A stretch of 44,140 nt of DNA from a virus. Below are positions 1 to 44,140 of the stretch, in pieces; position 1 is the stretch's first letter; every line of letters starts with the position of its first letter. The position numbers were made by a program, and so were the translations under genes. Location: IMG/VR virus record IMGVR_UViG_3300031566_000102, positions 1 through 44,140 of that record. One strand, given 5' to 3'. The notes beneath the pieces are model-generated. The model searched no databases. It was not told where the DNA came from and saw nothing but the letters and a program-made list of their open reading frames with translations.

Positions 1-46
1 AACGTAAACCTTTCTTTTTTGCCTCTTCCAGTGTTAATATTTTCAT
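1..46 (-). CDS. 35-aa-repeat array gene, 5' fragment cut by window edge
   Basis: The start codon is at 46 on the minus strand, overlapping the stop of the next gene as ATGA. Only MKILTLEEAKKKGLR is visible before the sequence ends. These residues match the N-terminus of the two complete neighbouring array genes, so this is the beginning of another array member. If the molecule is circular it should continue, perhaps through missing repeats, into the truncated gene at 43726-44140. Function unknown. Confidence 0.75.
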   Translation of the reverse strand, partial: MKILTLEEAKKKGLR

Positions 47-127
47 TTCTTCCCCTTGTTTTTAATTAAATACTCAACCCCGTCTTTGGTTTGGTATGCG
101 TAAACACCGTTGCCGTAACTCCAACAA
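1..127. repeat. 127-base exact direct repeat of 336-462
   Basis: Bases 1-127 are identical to 336-462. The first mismatch is G128 against T463. The repeat covers the 5' end of one array gene, the intergenic RBS and the 3' end of the next. Because it begins at base 1, it probably reflects an assembly break inside the array. Confidence 0.9.
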
Positions 128-381
128 GCAACCGCTCTTTTACCATCCAGTAAATCAACACCATTTCTAATTAAATGGTAAATTCCATCTTTGGTTTGGT
201 ATTCGTAATCATCGTTGTAGTAACTACAACAATAAACCGCTCTTTTACCTTTAAGTAAGTCAACACCATCTCGTATTAAATGGTAAATTCCATCTTTGGT
301 TTGGTAGTCGTAATCACCGTTGTAGTAACTAAAATAACGTAAACCTTTCTTTTTTGCCTCTTCCAGTGTTAATATTTTCAT
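43..381 (-). CDS. Tandem 35-residue repeat protein (array member)
   Basis: The 112-aa protein has the N-terminal leader MKILTLEEAKKKGLRY followed by about three copies of a 35-residue repeat. The conserved frame is YQTKDG, HLIR, GVDLL and GKRAV, followed by a variable S-Y-x-N stretch. It ends in a Lys-rich tail. The DNA of that tail (NKGKK) doubles as a purine-rich ribosome-binding site for the next gene, which starts in an ATGA overlap. The aromatic/Gly-rich repeat loosely resembles WG-type beta repeats, but I do not recognise the family. No signal peptide or membrane segment is seen. Its paralogues lie directly up- and downstream. Function unknown. Confidence 0.8.
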   Translation of the reverse strand: MKILTLEEAKKKGLRYFSYYNGDYDYQTKDGIYHLIRDGVDLLKGKRAVYCCSYYNDDYEYQTKDGIYHLIRNGVDLLDGKRAVACWSYGNGVYAYQTKDGVEYLIKNKGKK

Positions 382-716
382 TTCTTCCCCTTGTTTTTAA
401 TTAAATACTCAACCCCGTCTTTGGTTTGGTATGCGTAAACACCGTTGCCGTAACTCCAACAATCAACCGCTCTTTTACCATCCAGTAAATCAACACCATT
501 TCTAATTAAATGCCAAATCCTATCTTTGGTTTCATATGCGTAATCACCGTTGCCGTAACTCCAACAATAAACCGCTCTTTTACCTTTAAGTAAATCAACA
601 CCATCACATATCAAATGGCAAACCCCGTCTTTGGTTTGGTATGCGTAATGACAGTTGTCGTAACTACAATAACGTAAACCTTTCTTTTTTGCCTCTACCA
701 GTGTTAATATTTTCAT
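378..716 (-). CDS. Tandem 35-residue repeat protein, promoter-proximal array member
   Basis: The 112-aa paralogue of the preceding gene has the same leader (MKILTLVEAKKKGLRY) and repeat frame. Substitutions concentrate at a few positions of each repeat (C/W, Y/G/D, D/V/H, E/A), while YQTKD, GVDLL and GKRAV stay fixed. An AGGAG-type site lies just upstream (717-730). This is the first gene after the strong leftward promoter at 752-780, so it probably heads the array operon. Its stop overlaps the next start as ATGA, implying translational coupling. The fold is unknown; a beta-solenoid or propeller-like repeat protein is a guess. Confidence 0.8.
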   Translation of the reverse strand: MKILTLVEAKKKGLRYCSYDNCHYAYQTKDGVCHLICDGVDLLKGKRAVYCWSYGNGDYAYETKDRIWHLIRNGVDLLDGKRAVDCWSYGNGVYAYQTKDGVEYLIKNKGKK

Positions 717-751: not shown

Positions 752-780
752 ATTGTAAACCATATAAAATAATAAGTCAA
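752..780 (-). promoter_or_regulatory. Leftward sigma70-type promoter for the repeat-protein array
   Basis: On the minus strand, TTGACT (775-780) and TACAAT (752-757) are separated by 17 bp, a near-consensus match. Transcription would start near 745 and enter the array gene at 716 after a short leader with a good RBS. It faces away from the rightward promoter at 825-852. Confidence 0.7.
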
Positions 781-2967: not shown

Positions 2968-4335
2968 ATGGAACTATACAACATAGAAGCAGAGCAAATC
3001 ATTCTTGGAAGTATTATTCAAAACAACGAGTATTTTTTCAAAGTAACTGAAACCATAAAAGCAAACGACTTTTACGAGCCTGTTCATCAAGAATTATATA
3101 AATATCTTGAAAAACAAATTACTTCAGGCGAGCAAGCTAACTCAGTCAACATGCAGAAAATATTTAACTCAAACAAAATTCTAAAAGAACTTGGAGGGCA
3201 AAATTATCTTGGAATAATACTTGGCGTAGCAAGTGGTATATTTGACATTCCAAATCATGCAAGGGAAGTATTAGACCTTTCAAGGAGAAGAAGAGCAAGA
3301 CAACTTGCGGAAAATTTATTAGCTATCGTAAACAGCCCTGAAAACAATAGCGTTGAAATGCTTGACAAAATCAAGACTGATATTGAGAACATCCAAGATG
3401 ATACAGGCTACGAATACAATGTTAAATCAATCTATGAAATAGTTTCAAAGGAAATTCCAGTCATCCAAGAAAACATGCAAAATAAAACTATTTCAAGACT
3501 CAGAACTGGTTTAAAAGACTTTGATGAGAAATTCCACGGCTTAAAAAATGGTGAGCTAACAATTTTTGGCGGTAGACCATCAATGGGTAAATCAACAATT
3601 GCATCACAAATAGGCTTAAATATTGCCAACAGTGGTAAAAATGTTATATTTTTCAGTGAAGAAATGAGCAATGAAATAAATGCTTACCGTACCATTGCTA
3701 ACATCACGAGGGTTAATTCCTATAAGTTTGAGAAAGGTTTTATAAACGAAACTGAATTTAAATTGCTAGAACAAAAAGCAACAACACTAAAAAACACAAA
3801 CTTTTATATTGACGATAGAACAAGCATAACACCTGCATACATGGAAAAAACAATAAGGCGTTTATATAGGAAACTTGGAAGAATTGATTTAGTGATCATC
3901 GACTACCTTCAATTTACAAAAGCTGATGGAAACGAAAAAGACATAAGGCGTATACTTTCCGATATAACTAAAAAGCTAAAAGGACTTGCAAAAAAATATG
4001 ATTGCCCTGTGCTTTGCCTTTCACAGTTAAATCGTGAAGTGGACAAACGCGACAATAAAAGACCTGAAATGTTTGATTTAAGAGATAGCGGCACAATTGA
4101 AGAAGATGCTGATATGGTAGTGTTCTGTTACAGGGCTGAATATTATGAAAAAAAATATCTTGACGGATTAAATGAATTTTCAGAAGACCAAAAAGAGAGA
4201 AAAAATTACCAACTTACAAAGGCAGAACTTGAACGAGATAAAAATACTTGCGAATTAATCGTAAGAAAAAATAGAAACGGTGCTTGTGGCACTGCTACTA
4301 TCAAATACTTACAAGAATTTTTTATTGCATTCTAG
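2968..4335 (+). CDS. dnaB: Replicative DNA helicase, DnaB family
   Basis: The 455-aa protein has normal DnaB length. The N-terminal domain begins NIEAEQIILGSI. A RecA-type helicase domain follows, with Walker A GRPSMGKST near residues 201-209, Walker B IDLVIIDYLQF near 306-316, and the LSQLNREVDKR motif with the DLRDSGTIEEDADMV segment after it. It would act as the hexameric 5'-3' replicative helicase, loaded by the initiator encoded just upstream. No phage primase or polymerase accompanies it, so the host replisome is probably recruited. Translation is probably coupled to the upstream gene because the RBS is weak. Confidence 0.93.
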   Translation: MELYNIEAEQIILGSIIQNNEYFFKVTETIKANDFYEPVHQELYKYLEKQITSGEQANSVNMQKIFNSNKILKELGGQNYLGIILGVASGIFDIPNHAREVLDLSRRRRARQLAENLLAIVNSPENNSVEMLDKIKTDIENIQDDTGYEYNVKSIYEIVSKEIPVIQENMQNKTISRLRTGLKDFDEKFHGLKNGELTIFGGRPSMGKSTIASQIGLNIANSGKNVIFFSEEMSNEINAYRTIANITRVNSYKFEKGFINETEFKLLEQKATTLKNTNFYIDDRTSITPAYMEKTIRRLYRKLGRIDLVIIDYLQFTKADGNEKDIRRILSDITKKLKGLAKKYDCPVLCLSQLNREVDKRDNKRPEMFDLRDSGTIEEDADMVVFCYRAEYYEKKYLDGLNEFSEDQKERKNYQLTKAELERDKNTCELIVRKNRNGACGTATIKYLQEFFIAF

Positions 4336-4343
4336 GAGAAATT

Positions 4344-4592
4344 ATGATTGAAAAAGAATTGAGAAAACAAATTGGATTGAGAGAAGAGCCGATGAGTTTG
4401 GCTAAAAAATTTATACTAGAAGCATTCTGTAACATTTGCGTTAAAGATTTTGCACTAGAAGAAAGAGAAAGAGCAATCGTTGCTTGCCAAATAGTGAAAG
4501 AATTACAAAATCTTGTTAATAATTATTATACAAGACAAGAAATAATCAAAGATAATGTGTTAAATTTAAACGTAGAGTGCGAAAGAAAATAA
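4344..4592 (+). CDS. Hypothetical protein, 82 aa
   Basis: I chose the ATG at 4344 because AGGAGAA precedes it. An upstream in-frame ATG at 4284 lies inside dnaB. The product (MIEKELRKQIGLREEPMSLAK onward) is helical and charged, with no recognised domain. It follows dnaB by 8 bases in the replication operon. Function unknown. Confidence 0.6.
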   Translation: MIEKELRKQIGLREEPMSLAKKFILEAFCNICVKDFALEERERAIVACQIVKELQNLVNNYYTRQEIIKDNVLNLNVECERK

Positions 4593-4650
4593 AAAAGGTT
4601 AAATGACCTTAATAAATAAAAAAATGAACTGTACGTGGCTTAAAATTAAT

Positions 4651-4673
4651 ATTAATAAGAAAGGAGAATGAGA
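4651..4673 (+). repeat. 23-base intergenic/RBS repeat, copy 1
   Basis: The 23 bases ending in AAGAAAGGAGAATGAGA are identical to 5058-5080. Each copy places an AGGAG site before a zinc-ribbon gene. The preceding bases (4618-4650) also resemble the junction at 5531-5566, suggesting duplication or a deletion scar. Confidence 0.8.
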
Positions 4674-5047
4674 TGATGTACACAAAAATAACAGACACTA
4701 GTATTTTAAACAAACTAACTAGAGAATTGTGGGAATTGCCATTGAAAGTAGATAATCTAGGTCGTAGAGAATTGTATTTTAAATGCAAGGTTGACTTTGA
4801 AAATGGATATTGCTCTTGCGGACAAAAACTAGACTACGGCTGGAGCTATTGCCCTAATTGTTCCGATAGTGCGGATGAAGCAGTTATTGAAGCAGAAAGT
4901 GTCAATGGAGCTTATGATATTTATTGTAAACGCAAAGGTTATACAGAAAAAGAAAAAGAGGAATATAGGAAGTTAACCATCAAGAAGGCAAAAATATCTC
5001 TTTGGGTTCAAAGTAACATTTATGAAAAATTAAAAAATGACAAATAA
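4673..5047 (+). CDS. Small zinc-ribbon protein, 124 aa
   Basis: A C-x-C ... C-x2-C zinc ribbon (GYCSCGQKLDYGWSYCPNCS, about residues 42-61) follows a basic/aromatic N-terminus. The C-terminal half is a charged helix rich in Lys and Glu. AGGAG lies six bases upstream. Zinc ribbons of this sort are common in small phage DNA- or protein-binding factors; the partner here is unknown. It is followed by a second zinc-binding gene with an identical RBS leader. Confidence 0.65.
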   Translation: MMYTKITDTSILNKLTRELWELPLKVDNLGRRELYFKCKVDFENGYCSCGQKLDYGWSYCPNCSDSADEAVIEAESVNGAYDIYCKRKGYTEKEKEEYRKLTIKKAKISLWVQSNIYEKLKNDK

Positions 5048-5057
5048 AACACTAACC

Positions 5058-5080
5058 ATTAATAAGAAAGGAGAATGAGA
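5058..5080 (+). repeat. 23-base intergenic/RBS repeat, copy 2
   Basis: Identical to 4651-4673. Its AGGAG is too close to the ATG at 5075 but well spaced for the ATG at 5081. Confidence 0.8.
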
Positions 5081-5545
5081 ATGAAAGAAACAAAATGTCC
5101 AAAATGCGGACACGTCCAAAATAAACAAAATCAAAAACCTGATTTAAAGACAAAACTATTCATGGACTTCTTTGAGTCGCAAGGAACAAAGTTTGTTCAT
5201 CATATCCAGTGCGAAAAATGCGAGGTTTTTTTTCCACAAGATGAACACACAGTAGAAAACCCAATGCATAAAATAGCCCAAAAATTTGTTGATAAATATT
5301 TTAACTATGATGTTGAAGATGAAGAAGATAAAATAATTTTAACTGTAGACGATTGGATTGACGGGGAAGGTGGCATTGTAGACGTGCATGGCTATTGTTT
5401 CTATATAGAATTTATGAAAGAAGCTTTAAAATTAAATGCAACACAAGACCAAGTGCTTGATTTCTATAACTATGAAATAGACAGTTTCACAAATGGAAAG
5501 CAACCAATGACTTTTCAAGAATTTATTAATAAAAATGAACTGTAG
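5081..5545 (+). CDS. Zinc-finger protein, about 154 aa
   Basis: The start at 5081 (MKETKCPKCGH) fits the RBS better than the in-frame ATG at 5075. Two CxxC pairs, CPKCGH near residue 6 and CEKCEVFF near residue 47, form one zinc ribbon. An acidic C-terminal domain follows (DVEDEEDKIILTVDDWIDG, later FYNYEIDSF). This arrangement resembles restriction-alleviation (Lar-like) or other small phage zinc proteins, but homology is not established. It directly precedes the DNA methyltransferase, which would fit an anti-restriction role (inference). Confidence 0.6.
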   Translation: MKETKCPKCGHVQNKQNQKPDLKTKLFMDFFESQGTKFVHHIQCEKCEVFFPQDEHTVENPMHKIAQKFVDKYFNYDVEDEEDKIILTVDDWIDGEGGIVDVHGYCFYIEFMKEALKLNATQDQVLDFYNYEIDSFTNGKQPMTFQEFINKNEL

Positions 5546-5554
5546 GGCTTTAAA

Positions 5555-6298
5555 ATGAAATTAATAAATGACCATTTTCAAAATCGTAAACAATACAATA
5601 TACCAAAAGCACAGCTTGTTTTAGCCGATATCCCCTATAATCTAGGAAACAATGCATACGCTAGCAATCCTATGTGGTATAAGGATGGCGATAACAAAAA
5701 TGGAGAAAGTAAATTAGCCGGAAAACAATTTTTTGACACGGATAAGAATTTCAATCTTAATGAATTTTTCCATTTTTGCAATAAGTTGATTAGACCCGAA
5801 CCAAAAGAAGTTGGAAAAGCTGGGTGTATGATTGTATTTTGCTCATTTGAACAACAATTTACGCTAATTGAAATAGCAAAAAAATATGGATTTCAAAAAT
5901 ATATCCCTTTGAGTTTTTATAAAAATTATAGTCCGCAAGTTCTAAAAGCTAACATGAGAATTGTTGGAAACACAGAATACGCTCTATTATTTTACAGAGA
6001 TAAACTACCAAAATTTAACAATAAAGGAAGGATGGTATTCAATTCTCTTCCTTACGAAAGGGATACACAAACAGAAAAAATCCATCCAACACAAAAATCT
6101 ATACACCTTTTAAAATTTCTAATTGAGTTATTCACTGATGATGGGGATGTTGTGATTGACCCTTGTGCTGGTAGTGGTTCAACTTTATTGGCTAGTGAAA
6201 TGTTGGGTAGAAAATCGTATGGTTTTGAAATTAAGAAAGAATTTTGTAAAATGTTTGATGAAAAATTATCAAAAAATATACAAGTGAATTTAATTTAG
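5555..6298 (+). CDS. DNA methyltransferase, probably N6-adenine, beta class
   Basis: The 247-aa protein has the catalytic motif IV near the N-terminus (ADIPYNLG, DIPY at residues 25-28). The SAM-binding motif I is near the C-terminus (DPCAGSGSTLLAS, about 202-214), preceded by HPTQKS. This permuted order (IV before I) defines beta-class enzymes such as CcrM. No restriction endonuclease is adjacent, so it is probably a solitary modification enzyme protecting phage DNA or altering regulation. Its recognition sequence cannot be read from the protein. CcrM-type GANTC methylation would suit an alphaproteobacterial host, but is unproven. Confidence 0.88.
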   Translation: MKLINDHFQNRKQYNIPKAQLVLADIPYNLGNNAYASNPMWYKDGDNKNGESKLAGKQFFDTDKNFNLNEFFHFCNKLIRPEPKEVGKAGCMIVFCSFEQQFTLIEIAKKYGFQKYIPLSFYKNYSPQVLKANMRIVGNTEYALLFYRDKLPKFNNKGRMVFNSLPYERDTQTEKIHPTQKSIHLLKFLIELFTDDGDVVIDPCAGSGSTLLASEMLGRKSYGFEIKKEFCKMFDEKLSKNIQVNLI

Positions 6299-6671: not shown

Positions 6672-6992
6672 ATGAGTGAAGAAATAGAAATAAATGGCGA
6701 AAAATACATAAAGAAATCTTGCATAACAGATTTTGAGCCTAGTACTGTTAGGATAGCTGTTTTAAATAGAGGCTGGATTGTTATTGGGAGAGTTAGCCAA
6801 AAAAAGAATAAAACATTTATTAGCAACGCTTCTATTATCCGAAAGTGGGGTACTACAAAAGGATTGGGAGAGTTAGCCGAATTTGGCGTGCTTAATAACA
6901 CTATTCTAGATAAATGCAATGATATTGAAGTAGAGACAATAAATGTAGTCTTACTTATGAATTGTAATAAAGACAGTTGGAAAAATGTCTAA
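6672..6992 (+). CDS. Conserved phage hypothetical protein (DUF6948-like), 106 aa
   Basis: An AAAAAGGAAACGG site precedes the ATG. The protein contains an IVIGRVSQ strand region and the motif NASIIRKWGTTKGLGELA (about residues 52-69). From memory this resembles small beta-rich phage proteins of the DUF6948 type; the assignment is tentative. Its last eight bases overlap the start of the first Gly-rich gene (ATGTCTAA), so the two are probably translationally coupled. The molecular function is not known. Confidence 0.65.
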   Translation: MSEEIEINGEKYIKKSCITDFEPSTVRIAVLNRGWIVIGRVSQKKNKTFISNASIIRKWGTTKGLGELAEFGVLNNTILDKCNDIEVETINVVLLMNCNKDSWKNV

Positions 6993-7302
6993 AATGTCTA
7001 ATTTTAACAAAGAACACAATTCATTCACTGGCTATGGCAATGGTTATGGAAATGGCAATGGCGATGGCTATGGCGGAAACGGCTATGGCGATGGCGATGG
7101 CGATGGCAATGGCGGAAATGGCAATGGATATGGCGATGGCAATGGCGATGGCTATGGCGATGGCTATGGCTATGGCGATTGCGATGGCGGAAATGGTTAT
7201 GGTTATGGTTATGGCGATGGCGGAAACGGCTATGGCGATGGCTATTGCGGAAATGGAAGTGGCAATGGCTATGGCGATGGCGATGGCTATGGCGATGGTT
7301 GA
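6985..7302 (+). CDS. Gly-rich low-complexity protein, copy 1 (105 aa)
   Basis: After the leader MSKMSNFNKE the protein is nearly pure alternating Gly-X with X being Tyr, Asn or Asp, occasionally broken by GG or a Cys. It would be disordered or a glycine-rich helix. There is no signal peptide. It overlaps the preceding gene by eight bases and has a weak RBS. Two further copies follow. The DNA is a run of GGNNAT hexamers, so other frames are also open; this frame is preferred because each copy has its own ATG, a conserved leader and a stop on the operon strand. Function unknown. Confidence 0.55.
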   Translation: MSKMSNFNKEHNSFTGYGNGYGNGNGDGYGGNGYGDGDGDGNGGNGNGYGDGNGDGYGDGYGYGDCDGGNGYGYGYGDGGNGYGDGYCGNGSGNGYGDGDGYGDG

Positions 7303-7311
7303 AACAATAAA

Positions 7312-7584
7312 ATGTCTAAAATGTCTAATTTTAACAAAGAATACAATCATTCAATAGTTAGCGGCAATGGCTATGGAAATGGCTATGGCTATGGCTATGG
7401 CGATGGCGGAAACGGCGATGGCGATGGCTATTGCGGAAATGGAAGTGGCAATGGCTATGGCGATGGCGATGGAAATGGCGGAAATGGCTATGGCGATGGC
7501 GATGGCGATGGAAATGGCGGAAATGGCAATGGCTATGGAAATGGCTATGGCGATGGCGATGGAAATGGCTATGGCGATGGTTGA
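7312..7584 (+). CDS. Gly-rich low-complexity protein, copy 2 (90 aa)
   Basis: This is a tandem copy of the gene at 6985 with the same leader (MSKMSNFNKEYN) and a different arrangement of GY, GN and GD dipeptides. It starts nine bases after the previous stop, with no clear RBS, so it depends on reinitiation if translated. The leader DNA is nearly identical to copies 1 and 3, and the hexamer tracts differ in length and order. This points to duplication followed by slippage or recombination. Confidence 0.55.
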   Translation: MSKMSNFNKEYNHSIVSGNGYGNGYGYGYGDGGNGDGDGYCGNGSGNGYGDGDGNGGNGYGDGDGDGNGGNGNGYGNGYGDGDGNGYGDG

Positions 7585-7593
7585 AACAATAAA

Positions 7594-7872
7594 ATGTCTA
7601 AAATGTCTAATTTTAACAAAGAATACAATCATTCAGTAACAACCAGCGGCTACGGCTACGGCTACGGCAATGGCGATGTCTATGGCGATGGCTATGGCGA
7701 TGGCGATGGCTATGGCAATGGCAATGGCTATGGAAATGGCTATGACGGAAATGGCAATGGCAATGGCAATGGCGATGGCTATGGAAATGGCGGAAATGGC
7801 GATGGAAATGGCGATGGCGATGGCGATGGAAATGGCAATGGCAATGGCGATGGCGATGGCAATAAAAATTAG
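7594..7872 (+). CDS. Gly-rich low-complexity protein, copy 3 (92 aa)
   Basis: This is the third tandem copy, with leader MSKMSNFNKEYNHS, a short TTSGYGYGYG stretch, and then Gly-Asn/Asp/Tyr dipeptides ending NKN. It begins nine bases after copy 2 stops. Its last residues leave the repeat and are followed by the ribbon-helix-helix gene. The role is unknown. Acidic/aromatic Gly-rich chains can phase separate or bind metal, but nothing here shows that. Confidence 0.55.
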   Translation: MSKMSNFNKEYNHSVTTSGYGYGYGNGDVYGDGYGDGDGYGNGNGYGNGYDGNGNGNGNGDGYGNGGNGDGNGDGDGDGNGNGNGDGDGNKN

Positions 7873-36845: not shown

Positions 36846-39164
36846 TTAATCTCCTAAAACTTTGTTACTACTATTGTTTATAACTTTAATATTGTCGCCT
36901 TGAACATCAAGTGTATTAAATAAATATGAATAAGTCAAGGCAATAGCATCACCCTTATCAGGTGAACCTACTCCTTCCTTCTTCATATCATCTTTACTTT
37001 TTAGCAATATCTGATTGCTTAGTCTGTAGTCGTAAGTTTGTACTTGTAGTTGAAGAACTAACTCTTCATCGTTATCAATTTGCAATCCATTCTCCATTGC
37101 TTCTTTTATTCTAAACCACATTTCAGCTCTTTTGTTAGCATAAAGTAGTTTATTCTCTGCTGCTGCCCCACTATATACAGGTCTACAAGGATACTTATAA
37201 TATTTCAGGAAGTCGATTGGAGAAGAACCAACACCTATTGCATCAATGAATATGTACTTAGTTTTAAACTTATCTGCTACTTTTATTATTTCTTGTGCCA
37301 GTTGATGACCATCTTGGCTTTTAAACTTTAACACTGCCATTATCCTGTCACCTTGTCTAACCGCTATAATTGAGCTATCTCTACCCTCTCTTGCAACATC
37401 AACACCAATAATAGCACAGAACCTCATATAGTTTTGTGATTCAAAGCTTAATGATTTATTGATTAATTCACTTGGTATTACTGTTCTCGTGCTTGAGTTT
37501 TGGAATGCTTCATAAATTGTTGCTGGATATTCTTGCCTAAATTGTCTTAATCCATCAGAAAAGAAGCTTATCTTGTTTCTACGCCAAGCCATTTGTTCGT
37601 CATCAAGGTCGTATGTTTTTTTGTATTCTTCCTCATCTTCATCTAATTTAAAGTTTTCTGATAATTTTAGTCTATATTCGTCTTGCCAGAACCAAGGGAC
37701 AAATATTAGCTCATATTCATTTTTTCCAGCGATTGCATCCATACAGTACTTATGAAACATGTTACCAAGACCATTAGCGGTACTTTCAAGAATTATTTCT
37801 GTCTCGTCCATATCAGGCACAGTCTGCATTAGCCCTGTTTGCAACTCTTCGGTATTTTTCATAAAAGCTACTTCTGACATGTGCAGATATTGAACTGTAT
37901 CAGACCGTCCAACGTTGCCACTTCCAGCAGTTCCGACTCCATAACCACTGTTTAAAATATCAAAGGATAATTCTTTCGCATTTGAAACACCAGTGCTGGG
38001 CTTTATAGCAAGAGGACAGTTATCATGAAAATTCTTCACCTTGCCATAGATAACGGAAGTTGCGTCATCTCTATGTGTAACGATAAAACTTTTAATCCCT
38101 TTTCTATGTATGATTTTCCAATAGTAACGACCTGCTACATAAGTTGAGTTATGAGAAACAAGCCCATTACAAATAAAAGTCTTCTCGCTTGTTTGTAAAT
38201 CTATGACTTTTCGTTCTCCAAGAGGTTTTATAGAAGTCACTTTTGCCCATGCTTGAAAGCCTTCACAAGTCTTAGGCAGTTTTTTACCATTAAATAACTC
38301 TCTTGTGATAAATCTTGATGGACGTGTTAGAATCAAAAGCTTTATAACATCACTAATTCTATCTACTCTTAAAGTGTGTATCTCTTTGTTACCTAGTTTA
38401 GAACTAGTGCCAGCCTTTCTTTTATCAATGCAAGTATAATAATGAATATTATTGTCTTTTAAATATTTGTGCATTCTGTCTAATACATCGCCTTTGCGTT
38501 GGCTAACTCCAATTCTGACTTCAGGATTAGCTCCAAAACTTCCTTCACCGTCTAGCATACCACTAAACCAACCATCCTCAAACGTCTTTTCTCTTTCTTC
38601 TGGCTTGTTGCATAATACACGGATATAATCACCAACCTTTGTATTATTAACTTCTCTCCATTCCGCTCTGTCTCCTCCCCTCTGTTTGCACAAATGCCTA
38701 TGTTCACCAGTTACTACAAGTTTCACTCCTGTGTCTGTTATAACTTCGTAGGTTTGTTTAGTAAGATATGCCTTAGCTTCTATGACTGCTGTTCTAATCT
38801 TTCTTGTTGCTTTTCTTCCTGCCTTGTTTAGCTCTCCAGTATTTTCATCAACTGCAATAATTTTTTCTCCAATCTCTAAATCTTTGATTTGTTTCCATTG
38901 GTAGTTTGCAGTTAATACTTTCGTTTCTGGCGAATAACAACATCCTTGTTGACGCCCCTTCAAAATTATAGCTCTTACTCTTCCTCTCTCTCTCCTCTGC
39001 TTCTCTATTCTCATATGGATATATCTTTGAGCTTGATTCATCTCAAACTTAAGAAGCTGTCCGTCCTTAGTTCCGCCCTTAGTTCTGATTAATAGAGCAT
39101 TTTTTGCAAAGTATCTAAAATCATCTTTTAATCGCTGTCTTTTCTTTTTTTCTTCTTGTTTCAT
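36846..39164 (-). CDS. terL: Large terminase subunit interrupted by an intein, 772 aa (508 after splicing)
   Basis: Walker A GRQQGC-ST is split by the intein: residues 70-75 precede it and 340-341 follow. The ATPase continues with YLHMSE (426-431) as Walker B and LESTANG (459-465) as coupling motif. The nuclease domain has GVDVAREGRD (588-596), FIDAIG (639-644) and SPDKGDAIALTY (734-745) supplying acidic residues. It packages DNA into the prohead and cuts it. The ATP site cannot form until the intein is removed, so splicing is essential for activity. RBS GAAGGTAG precedes the ATG. Confidence 0.92.
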   Translation of the reverse strand: MKQEEKKKRQRLKDDFRYFAKNALLIRTKGGTKDGQLLKFEMNQAQRYIHMRIEKQRRERGRVRAIILKGRQQGCCYSPETKVLTANYQWKQIKDLEIGEKIIAVDENTGELNKAGRKATRKIRTAVIEAKAYLTKQTYEVITDTGVKLVVTGEHRHLCKQRGGDRAEWREVNNTKVGDYIRVLCNKPEEREKTFEDGWFSGMLDGEGSFGANPEVRIGVSQRKGDVLDRMHKYLKDNNIHYYTCIDKRKAGTSSKLGNKEIHTLRVDRISDVIKLLILTRPSRFITRELFNGKKLPKTCEGFQAWAKVTSIKPLGERKVIDLQTSEKTFICNGLVSHNSTYVAGRYYWKIIHRKGIKSFIVTHRDDATSVIYGKVKNFHDNCPLAIKPSTGVSNAKELSFDILNSGYGVGTAGSGNVGRSDTVQYLHMSEVAFMKNTEELQTGLMQTVPDMDETEIILESTANGLGNMFHKYCMDAIAGKNEYELIFVPWFWQDEYRLKLSENFKLDEDEEEYKKTYDLDDEQMAWRRNKISFFSDGLRQFRQEYPATIYEAFQNSSTRTVIPSELINKSLSFESQNYMRFCAIIGVDVAREGRDSSIIAVRQGDRIMAVLKFKSQDGHQLAQEIIKVADKFKTKYIFIDAIGVGSSPIDFLKYYKYPCRPVYSGAAAENKLLYANKRAEMWFRIKEAMENGLQIDNDEELVLQLQVQTYDYRLSNQILLKSKDDMKKEGVGSPDKGDAIALTYSYLFNTLDVQGDNIKVINNSSNKVLGD
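38148..38939 (-). mobile_element. Intein with LAGLIDADG homing endonuclease domain in TerL
   Basis: The 264-residue intein spans TerL residues 76-339. It starts with Cys (CYSPETKVLTA) and has block B-like VVTGEHRHLC. It ends with FICNGLVSHN followed by Ser, giving the His-Asn end and a Ser nucleophile as +1. A single LAGLIDADG-type motif (WFSGMLDGEGSF, 199-210) and following helices indicate a homing endonuclease, likely acting as a dimer or decayed. It interrupts the Walker A loop between Cys75 and Ser340, a highly conserved target. Confidence 0.9.
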
Positions 39165-39280
39165 TAAAAACTACCTTCTAGGATGAACGAGGATTAACGG
39201 ATTAACATGTTTTAATATGATAGTATACTTAATTAATTTGTAAATAGAAAAGGTTTAAAATGAATTTTTATTATTAAGTA

Positions 39281-39369
39281 TTGATTAGATTGATTAGATT
39301 GATTAGATTGATTGATTAGATTGATTGATTAGATTGATTAGATTGATTAGATTGATTAGATTGATTAGA
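39281..39369. repeat. 9-bp minisatellite between terS and terL
   Basis: Nine perfect copies of TTGATTAGA, with two 4-base TTGA insertions after the third and fourth copies, make 89 bp. The rest of the 216-bp gap (39165-39380) is AT-rich with no gene; the terL RBS lies at its left. Position between the terminase genes raises a packaging-site role, but slippage alone could create it. Confidence 0.9.
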
Positions 39370-39380
39370 TTTTTATTATG

Positions 39381-43234: not shown

Positions 43235-43444
43235 TCACCATGGTATTTGTAGCTCATCTAGGGCTTTTTTAACTTTTTTTATTGTTTGTTCTGTCAAATA
43301 CGCTGATTTATCATCCAGTACCATATATATTCTTTTTGCTCCGCTTATTGACATATTCATTGCTTTTGCTAAGTTTACATGACTTATCTTATCTACAATC
43401 CATCTCAATTTGTCAGTTTCTATTTTTCTTGTGGCTTCTATCAT
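43235..43444 (-). CDS. Small HTH regulator downstream of the repeat array, 69 aa
   Basis: The sequence LRWIVDKISHVNLAKAMNMSISGAKRIYMVL (about residues 13-43) fits a helix-turn-helix. A charged helix (TEQTIKKVKKALDEL) follows. It begins three bases after the stop of the last array gene, whose end supplies AAGGAGAAATAAAT as RBS. It is cotranscribed with the array and may control it. Confidence 0.65.
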   Translation of the reverse strand: MIEATRKIETDKLRWIVDKISHVNLAKAMNMSISGAKRIYMVLDDKSAYLTEQTIKKVKKALDELQIPW

Positions 43445-43447
43445 TAT

Positions 43448-43729
43448 TTATTTCTCCTTGTTTTTAATTAAATGCTCAACCGCTCTTTTACCATCCAGTA
43501 AATCAACACCATCTCGTATTAAATGGTAAATTCCATCTTTGGTTTGGTAGTCGTAATCATCGTTTTCGTAACTCAAACAATCAACCGCTCTTTTACCTTT
43601 AAGTAAGTCAACACCATCTCGTATCAAATGCCAAATCCCGTCTTTGGTTTGGTATTCGTAATCACCGTTGTGGTAACTATAATAACGTAAACCTTTCTTT
43701 TTTGCCTCTTCCAGTGTTAATATTTTCAT
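43448..43729 (-). CDS. Tandem 35-residue repeat protein, shortened last array member
   Basis: This 93-aa paralogue of the genes at 43 and 378 has the leader MKILTLEEAKKKGLRYYSYH, two full repeats and then a fused end: GKRAV runs directly into EHLIKNKEK. About 19 residues between GKRAV and the final HLIK are missing compared with its paralogues. This is an in-frame deletion, as expected from recombination between repeats. It starts in an ATGA overlap with the upstream array gene. Confidence 0.8.
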   Translation of the reverse strand: MKILTLEEAKKKGLRYYSYHNGDYEYQTKDGIWHLIRDGVDLLKGKRAVDCLSYENDDYDYQTKDGIYHLIRDGVDLLDGKRAVEHLIKNKEK

Positions 43730-44140
43730 TTCTTCTCCTTGTTTTTAATTAAATGCTTAACCCCATCTTTGGTTTGGTATTTATAATCACCGTTACGGTA
43801 ACTATAACAATCAACCGCTCTTTTACCATCCAGTAAATCAACACCATCACGTATCAAATGCTCAACCCAGTCTTTGGTTTGGTATTTATAATCACCGCTG
43901 TCGTAACTCCAACAATCAACCGCTCTTTTACCATCCAGTAAATCAACACCATTTCTAATTAAATGGTAAATTCCATCTTTGGTTTGGTATTTATAATCAC
44001 CGTTGTCGTAACTCAAACAAGCAACCGCTCTTTTACCATCCAGTAAATCAACACCATTTCTAATTAAATGGTAAATTCCATCTTTGGTTTGGTATTCGTA
44101 ATCATCGTTGTAGTAACTACAACAATAAACCGCTCTTTTA
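43726..44140 (-). CDS. Tandem 35-residue repeat protein, truncated by window edge
   Basis: The frame is open to the edge of the window. The apparent internal Met at 44016 is not the real start, since repeat sequence (KRAVYCCSYYNDDYEYQTKDG) continues upstream of it. At least four repeats are present, so it is longer than the 112-aa members. The stop overlaps the next gene as ATGA. It presumably joins a leader such as that at 1-46 across the circle junction or a missing stretch. Confidence 0.75.
   Translation of the reverse strand, partial: KRAVYCCSYYNDDYEYQTKDGIYHLIRNGVDLLDGKRAVACLSYDNGDYKYQTKDGIYHLIRNGVDLLDGKRAVDCWSYDSGDYKYQTKDWVEHLIRDGVDLLDGKRAVDCYSYRNGDYKYQTKDGVKHLIKNKEKK
44016..44140. repeat. 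125-base exact direct repeat of 123-247
   Basis: The last 125 bases are identical to 123-247. The mismatch just before is A44015 against C122. Together with the array genes running off both edges, this links the right end of the window to its left end. Confidence 0.9.

Follow-up and report, generated by a model that had tools for sequence, protein, structure and literature searches.

Introduction

The closest described systems to the locus studied here are repeat proteins in which a few residues of each repeat change rapidly. In the high-internal-conservation (HIC) WD40 domains of the fungal NLR proteins HET-D and HET-E, the variable codons correspond to positions on the interaction surface (PMC12222747). 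HIC repeats also include ANK and TPR cases, and a domain is assigned to the class when its internal repeats are more than 85% identical over at least 100 residues (PMC4986451). Another system with a similar repeat is iceA2 of H. pylori, some alleles of which contain a 105-nt repeat coding for 35 residues (PMC4402555). iceA2 is a single gene adjoining the methylase gene hpyIM and has been reported to be without homologues (PMC13340068).

The window of the present study is the whole stretch of DNA analysed, a virus record of 44,140 bases from a podovirus-like phage with genes for a T7-type portal (phrog_332), DnaB, RecT and YqaJ. It carries tandem genes for small proteins built of 35-residue units, in which amino-acid change is concentrated at a few positions of the unit.

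Results

Organization of the array genes

The array is on the minus strand and spans both contig ends; it is followed by the small genes E and F. The features are listed below in window coordinates.

378..716, minus: array gene A, 112 aa; leader MKILTLVEAKKKGLRY, two full 35-residue units and a truncated third
43..381, minus: array gene B, 112 aa; ATGA overlap with gene A
1..46, minus: start of array gene C; leader only, gene cut by the contig end
43726..44139, minus: 3' part of array gene C (or of a further gene), 137 codons, 5' end open at the contig end; three complete units plus a truncated fourth
43448..43729, minus: array gene D, 93 aa; last unit with an in-frame deletion
43727..43755, minus: tail of gene C; holds the ribosome-binding-site-like sequence AAGGAGAAG of gene D
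1..127: first contig end; identical to 336-462
44016..44140: second contig end; identical to 123-247
752..780, minus: promoter-like site TTGACT-17-TACAAT upstream of gene A; not above shuffle background
43235..43444, minus: gene E, 69 aa, downstream of gene D; weak similarity to positions 2092-2298 of the related phage contig L005
42862..43206, minus: gene F, 114 aa; homologues of 35-39% identity in six other phage contigs

The original prediction, given for 43448-44140, where gene D and the 3' part of gene C lie, spoke of tandem, ATGA-coupled genes with a common leader and a 35-residue unit, one copy having an in-frame deletion. All of this is found in the array: the gene pairs A-B, B-C and C-D overlap by 4 bases each, leader and unit are as described, and the deletion is the one in gene D. 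The block forming the tail of gene C recurs upstream of gene A at 714-742. The scaffold, which had been called constant, is present as described but is not invariant, as one YETKD and one HLIC occur.

Other parts of that description have to be corrected. At least five genes had been counted, but only four leader-bearing genes are visible in the window, three complete and one cut at the contig ends. The first 127 and the last 125 bases of the contig copy other array positions exactly, so the assembly broke inside the array, and both contig ends represent this break. The start and the end of gene C may belong to one gene. The simplest closure would give four array genes, and the true number may be higher. 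The possibility that the array itself is an assembly artefact was rejected, because its units have different codons and other contigs carry the family too; the array is thus real. The proposed strong promoter corresponds to the site at 780-752, but promoter-like sites numbered 6 as against 7.0 in shuffles. The proposed HTH gene is ORF E, which is HTH-like by eye but has no Pfam HTH match, making the assignment a weak one for the window.

Some observations were made on the rest of the phage and its relatives. The gene for the terminase large subunit (36846-39164, minus) is interrupted, after RQQGC in the P-loop region, by an intein-like insertion (Pfam Intein_splicing, E 6.7e-10). In the near-identical contig L007 this gene is uninterrupted, and an ORF which by eye resembles a GIY-YIG homing endonuclease lies upstream of it (784-1287, plus) and is absent from the window. 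About ten copies of the 9-base direct repeat ATTGATTAG are located upstream of the window's terminase gene (39280-39371). A second leader-plus-repeat family of this array-bearing phage is formed by three tandem ORFs (6985-7872, plus), which share the leader MSKMSNFNKE(Y/H)N and have Gly/Asn/Tyr/Asp repeats arising from hexanucleotide DNA repeats. Among plasmids, the window's XRE regulator is matched most closely by alphaproteobacterial sequences, which is a weak hint at the host. In the sequence examined, the terminase and gene F relatives of the window showed no array. One of them, L013, codes directly upstream of its gene F homologue for a 224-residue protein with 21-residue YD-type repeats (6900-7574, plus); similar repeats occur in Verrucomicrobia phage P8625. 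In L005, genes for an acyltransferase and an outer-membrane beta-barrel lie between the gene F homologue and the terminase genes (3319-4841, plus) and form a possible surface-modification cassette. Phage ctHz2215 (L008) encodes a long protein of SSVEARG-type repeats that matches DUF7666 weakly (4968-6137, minus).

The family and its relatives in other phages

No family match was obtained in Pfam, NCBIfam, PADLOC, PDB sequences, 50,697 phages and 72,556 plasmids. Scattered PHROG matches, down to E 3e-10, were dropped, since a column-shuffled control reached E 2.6e-23 to other families, which means that repeat composition alone gives such scores. The sole hit to an anti-phage defence family, PADLOC PtuB1 for gene B (E 0.037), was judged a chance match. 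Scans of viral and genome collections with short peptides, taken from single window proteins or from their alignment, returned nothing because the peptides were too specific. The view that no described family fits is in agreement with these results, and within the libraries searched the family looks undescribed.

Relatives were found with a looser motif of scaffold residues, Y.NG[DN]Y.Y...DG. It revealed five matches in one locus of a 46.6 kb contig, IMGVR_UViG_3300024520_000008 (G004), and the same family in a 49.3 kb contig, IMGVR_UViG_3300032286_001553 (G006). A tblastn search of phage and plasmid records with a G004 protein gave no hits. G004 holds at least 36 units, with leaders of the form M(T/N)KILTLEEAR. 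Its first array region runs from contig position 5645 to about 9290, among replication genes, and its second from 44687 to the contig end, preceded by a clear Cro/C1-type HTH gene; a further short copy lies near the contig start. The longest G004 gene has about eleven units, so that the number per gene ranges from 2 to about 11. In one G004 gene (L097, 4969-5649, plus) N-terminal ankyrin repeats (Ank_2, E 3e-20) are followed by 35-residue units. In G006 a short array gene adjoins a ThyX-like gene, and each contig end carries a partial array.

The family, with the same repeat and leader, is thus present in at least three phage contigs, which have little else in common in the DNA compared. Among the pieces compared, the window proteins match G004 and G006 through the array alone, and for this reason the array module has probably moved between phages. 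A sister contig, IMGVR_UViG_3300024518_004359 (G005), is identical to G004 over 6,088 bases with no mismatch; divergence sets in at position 6196, where the first array gene ends, and continues in the second. Beyond this point G005 is composed of blocks of 7-70 bases, each with an exact copy in G004. Even the longest of these blocks falls short of the k-mer size to which the contig ends point, so the divergence is unlikely to reflect a simple path error of the assembly.

Site-restricted variation

Nine full units of the window, eight of them distinct, were compared codon by codon. With path averaging over the nine units, codons 1, 2, 6, 7, 8, 12, 17, 18, 23 and 29 showed only or almost only amino-acid change. 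Codons 5, 10 and 35 changed the amino acid almost exclusively. At codons 9, 11, 15, 20, 21, 26 and 28 the variation was silent only. Columns 2, 5, 10, 18 and 35, referred to below as hot columns, each show four or five different residues, and silent change is nearly absent from them in the window. It had been predicted that a few codons change repeatedly and mostly non-synonymously, and both the counts and the simulation described below support this; variation is concentrated on these five unit positions and is not evenly spread. Positions 7 and 29 add to the variable sites named earlier.

The window units are separated by a minimum of 39 changes. When unselected mutation was simulated, five columns with at least four residues arose in 0.0003 of 4,000 coalescent runs and never in a star run; their combination with seven silent-only columns did not occur at all. 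In the window, amino-acid change at the hot columns was 2.2-fold the silent change in the rest of the unit (bootstrap 1.6-3.3). Mean identity between window units was 0.77, being 0.87 outside the hot columns and 0.20 at them. The case for diversifying selection is built on pairwise counts and simulation, not on a site-model test.

Comparison of arrays among phages, which the original prediction had proposed as a check, showed the same five columns to be hot in G004. Across its 36 distinct units the most variable columns were 35, 16, 5, 2, 10, 32, 18 and 12, so all five hot columns of the window are among the top eight of 35 (chance 1.9e-4). The entropy profiles of the two phages are correlated (Spearman 0.60, P 1.6e-4). 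Hot-column amino-acid change in G004 was 4.4-fold the silent change elsewhere in the unit (3.4-5.4), and mean unit identity was 0.71, with 0.79 outside the hot columns and 0.23 at them. Between units of the window and of G004, identity was 0.70 outside the hot columns and 0.20 at them. Apparent silent change is also high at the G004 hot codons (pS 0.56), which leaves room for a locally raised mutation rate. A diversity-generating retroelement was considered and rejected: none of the three records searched (window, G004 and G006), which may be incomplete, matched RVT_1, and the variable codons are not of the adenine-rich type.

Predicted structure

Structure prediction, another check that had been proposed, gave confident beta-repeat models. 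The AlphaFold2 model of gene B has pLDDT 90.6 and pTM 0.81, and that of the gene C fragment has pLDDT 87.5 and pTM 0.78. Each unit is predicted to have three beta strands, at about columns 35-3, 9-12 and 18-22. In the models the hot columns 35 and 2 alternate with columns 1 and 3, column 10 falls between two conserved tyrosines, column 18 precedes the conserved His19, and columns 5 and 16 are in turns. This placement would fit an exposed face.

The best Foldseek matches were designed and natural beta-propellers, with E 8.8e-4 for gene B and 4.9e-5 for the C fragment. The best VIA Z scores, 5.8 and 6.9, are middling and in the range typical of unrelated matches, so that alone they would not establish the fold. 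The modelled proteins span only 3-4 units, too few to judge ring closure. With two to about five units per gene, the window proteins might need to oligomerise to form a closed propeller.

The variable codons could also be mutational or conversion hotspots, or tolerant positions in neutral drift, with no binding role. Drift would be expected at several hot columns that are in turns or alternate with probable core residues, the high pS of the G004 hot codons points the same way, and internal repeats recombine readily. We nevertheless regard this explanation as unlikely, since amino-acid change at the hot columns exceeds silent change in the rest of the units by a factor of 2.2 to 4.4, hot columns show almost no silent change in the window, the same columns are hot in distant phages, and a search of the window, G004 and G006 for a reverse transcriptase that could direct mutagenesis was negative.

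Discussion

The array combines a fixed scaffold, few diversified positions, tandem duplication and exchange between copies. These are the marks of repeat receptors, and by analogy with them we infer that the array proteins bind a changing protein partner. The best explanation, which we hold with moderate confidence, is that they are small modular binding proteins for variable host proteins, defence proteins above all. Counter-defence would be the likeliest role and is the one we favour, given that regulators and replication genes are neighbours of the arrays and that no integrase match was obtained in the window, G004 and G006; no defence-related neighbour of the array was identified.

The mechanism could be as follows. 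Each 35-residue unit would fold as a three-stranded, blade-like beta sheet, and the units would stack sidewise into a propeller-like arc. The scaffold residues would form the sheet and be maintained by purifying selection and by recombination between copies. Positions 2, 5, 10, 18 and 35, and in G004 also 16 and 32, would diversify on strands and turns, beside invariant residues. Because the tail-coding sequence contains the putative ribosome-binding site of the next gene, whose start overlaps the stop of the gene before it, genes could duplicate or recombine and yet stay translationally coupled. In this way the phage would hold a repertoire of related binders, altered by unequal recombination and point change. 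Expressed early, these binders would block the variable host proteins met at infection, chiefly defence proteins. A bolder and more tentative proposal is that the repertoire, with its blade-like units shuffled within and between the coupled genes, tracks host defence proteins and is a phage-borne, recombining, site-diversified counterpart of repeat-based immune receptors.

The arrays could also act between phages or at the cell surface, by binding receptors or proteins of other phages in superinfection exclusion, with competing phages driving the diversification. Divergence of arrays between near-identical phages would suit such a role, and the acyltransferase and outer-membrane barrel near gene F in L005 suggest surface modification in this lineage. 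But the leader is short and charged with no signal peptide apparent by eye, lysogeny is not indicated (no tyrosine-integrase match in the window, G004 and G006), and one G004 array is placed among replication genes, all of which make this role improbable.

More doubtful still is that the array proteins are relatives of H. pylori IceA2 with the same role. Foldseek did match IceA2 (7xfp, E 0.037, 20% identity), with a VIA Z of 4.8 over 81 residues at 3.4 A, and the repeat of some iceA2 alleles has the same length; however, 7xfp was absent from the PDB sequence-search results and a Z of 4.8 is within the range of unrelated propellers. A scan of genomes with the iceA2 primer pattern found no genome.

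Least probable is that the arrays are effectors diversified against targets in a eukaryotic host of the phage's bacterium: the ankyrin fusion (ankyrin domains being common in effectors of intracellular bacteria), the alphaproteobacterial matches of the XRE regulator and the fold-level match to IceA2 speak for it, but no secretion signal was identified, ankyrin repeats are general binding domains and IceA2 has no proven effector function.

If the reading as binders of host defence proteins is right, phages keep multi-gene arrays of fast-diversifying binders which mirror the repeat-based sensors of their hosts. The variable residues indicate at once where binding should be sought. For IceA2, which has been reported as lacking known homologues, the family could also offer a first basis for comparison.

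It is instructive to set the array beside the known repeat systems. With IceA2 it shares the 35-residue repeat, a variable repeat number and small size, and the folds match to a degree also seen with unrelated propellers, but identity is about 16-20%, the match is missed by sequence search, and a phage array stands against a single gene. The WG repeat (PF14903) has the same profile length of 35 and tandem beta repeats; it gave no window match even at E 10. WD40, RCC1 and the designed Cake and Ika beta-propellers are the best structural matches and have the predicted sheet stacking, whereas array units have three predicted strands and not four, 35 residues and not about 40, and are few per gene. 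The YD-type 21-residue repeat proteins of L013 and phage P8625 similarly have a short leader and tandem Tyr-Asp-rich repeats; their period is different, and a profile comparison with hhalign, itself a weak test, showed no relation.

The closest parallel is with the HIC WD40, ANK and TPR repeats of proteins such as HET-D and HET-E, which likewise have highly similar repeats with few hypervariable codons in each, signs of diversifying selection, variable repeat number and exchange between copies (PMC12222747, PMC4986451). Array units have few diversifying codon positions per repeat, as judged by pairwise counts and simulation, and repeats are shuffled or change in number between alleles, as seen between G004 and G005 and in the range of units per gene. 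The arrays differ in that their sequence and repeat length are unrelated to those of HIC proteins, they are stand-alone short phage genes in coupled arrays, and no NACHT or effector domain was seen in them. Mean unit identity in the window and in G004 is near but below the HIC cut-off of 85%. The array family appears, from its repeat sequences, to work like HIC repeats, though it is not classed as HIC.
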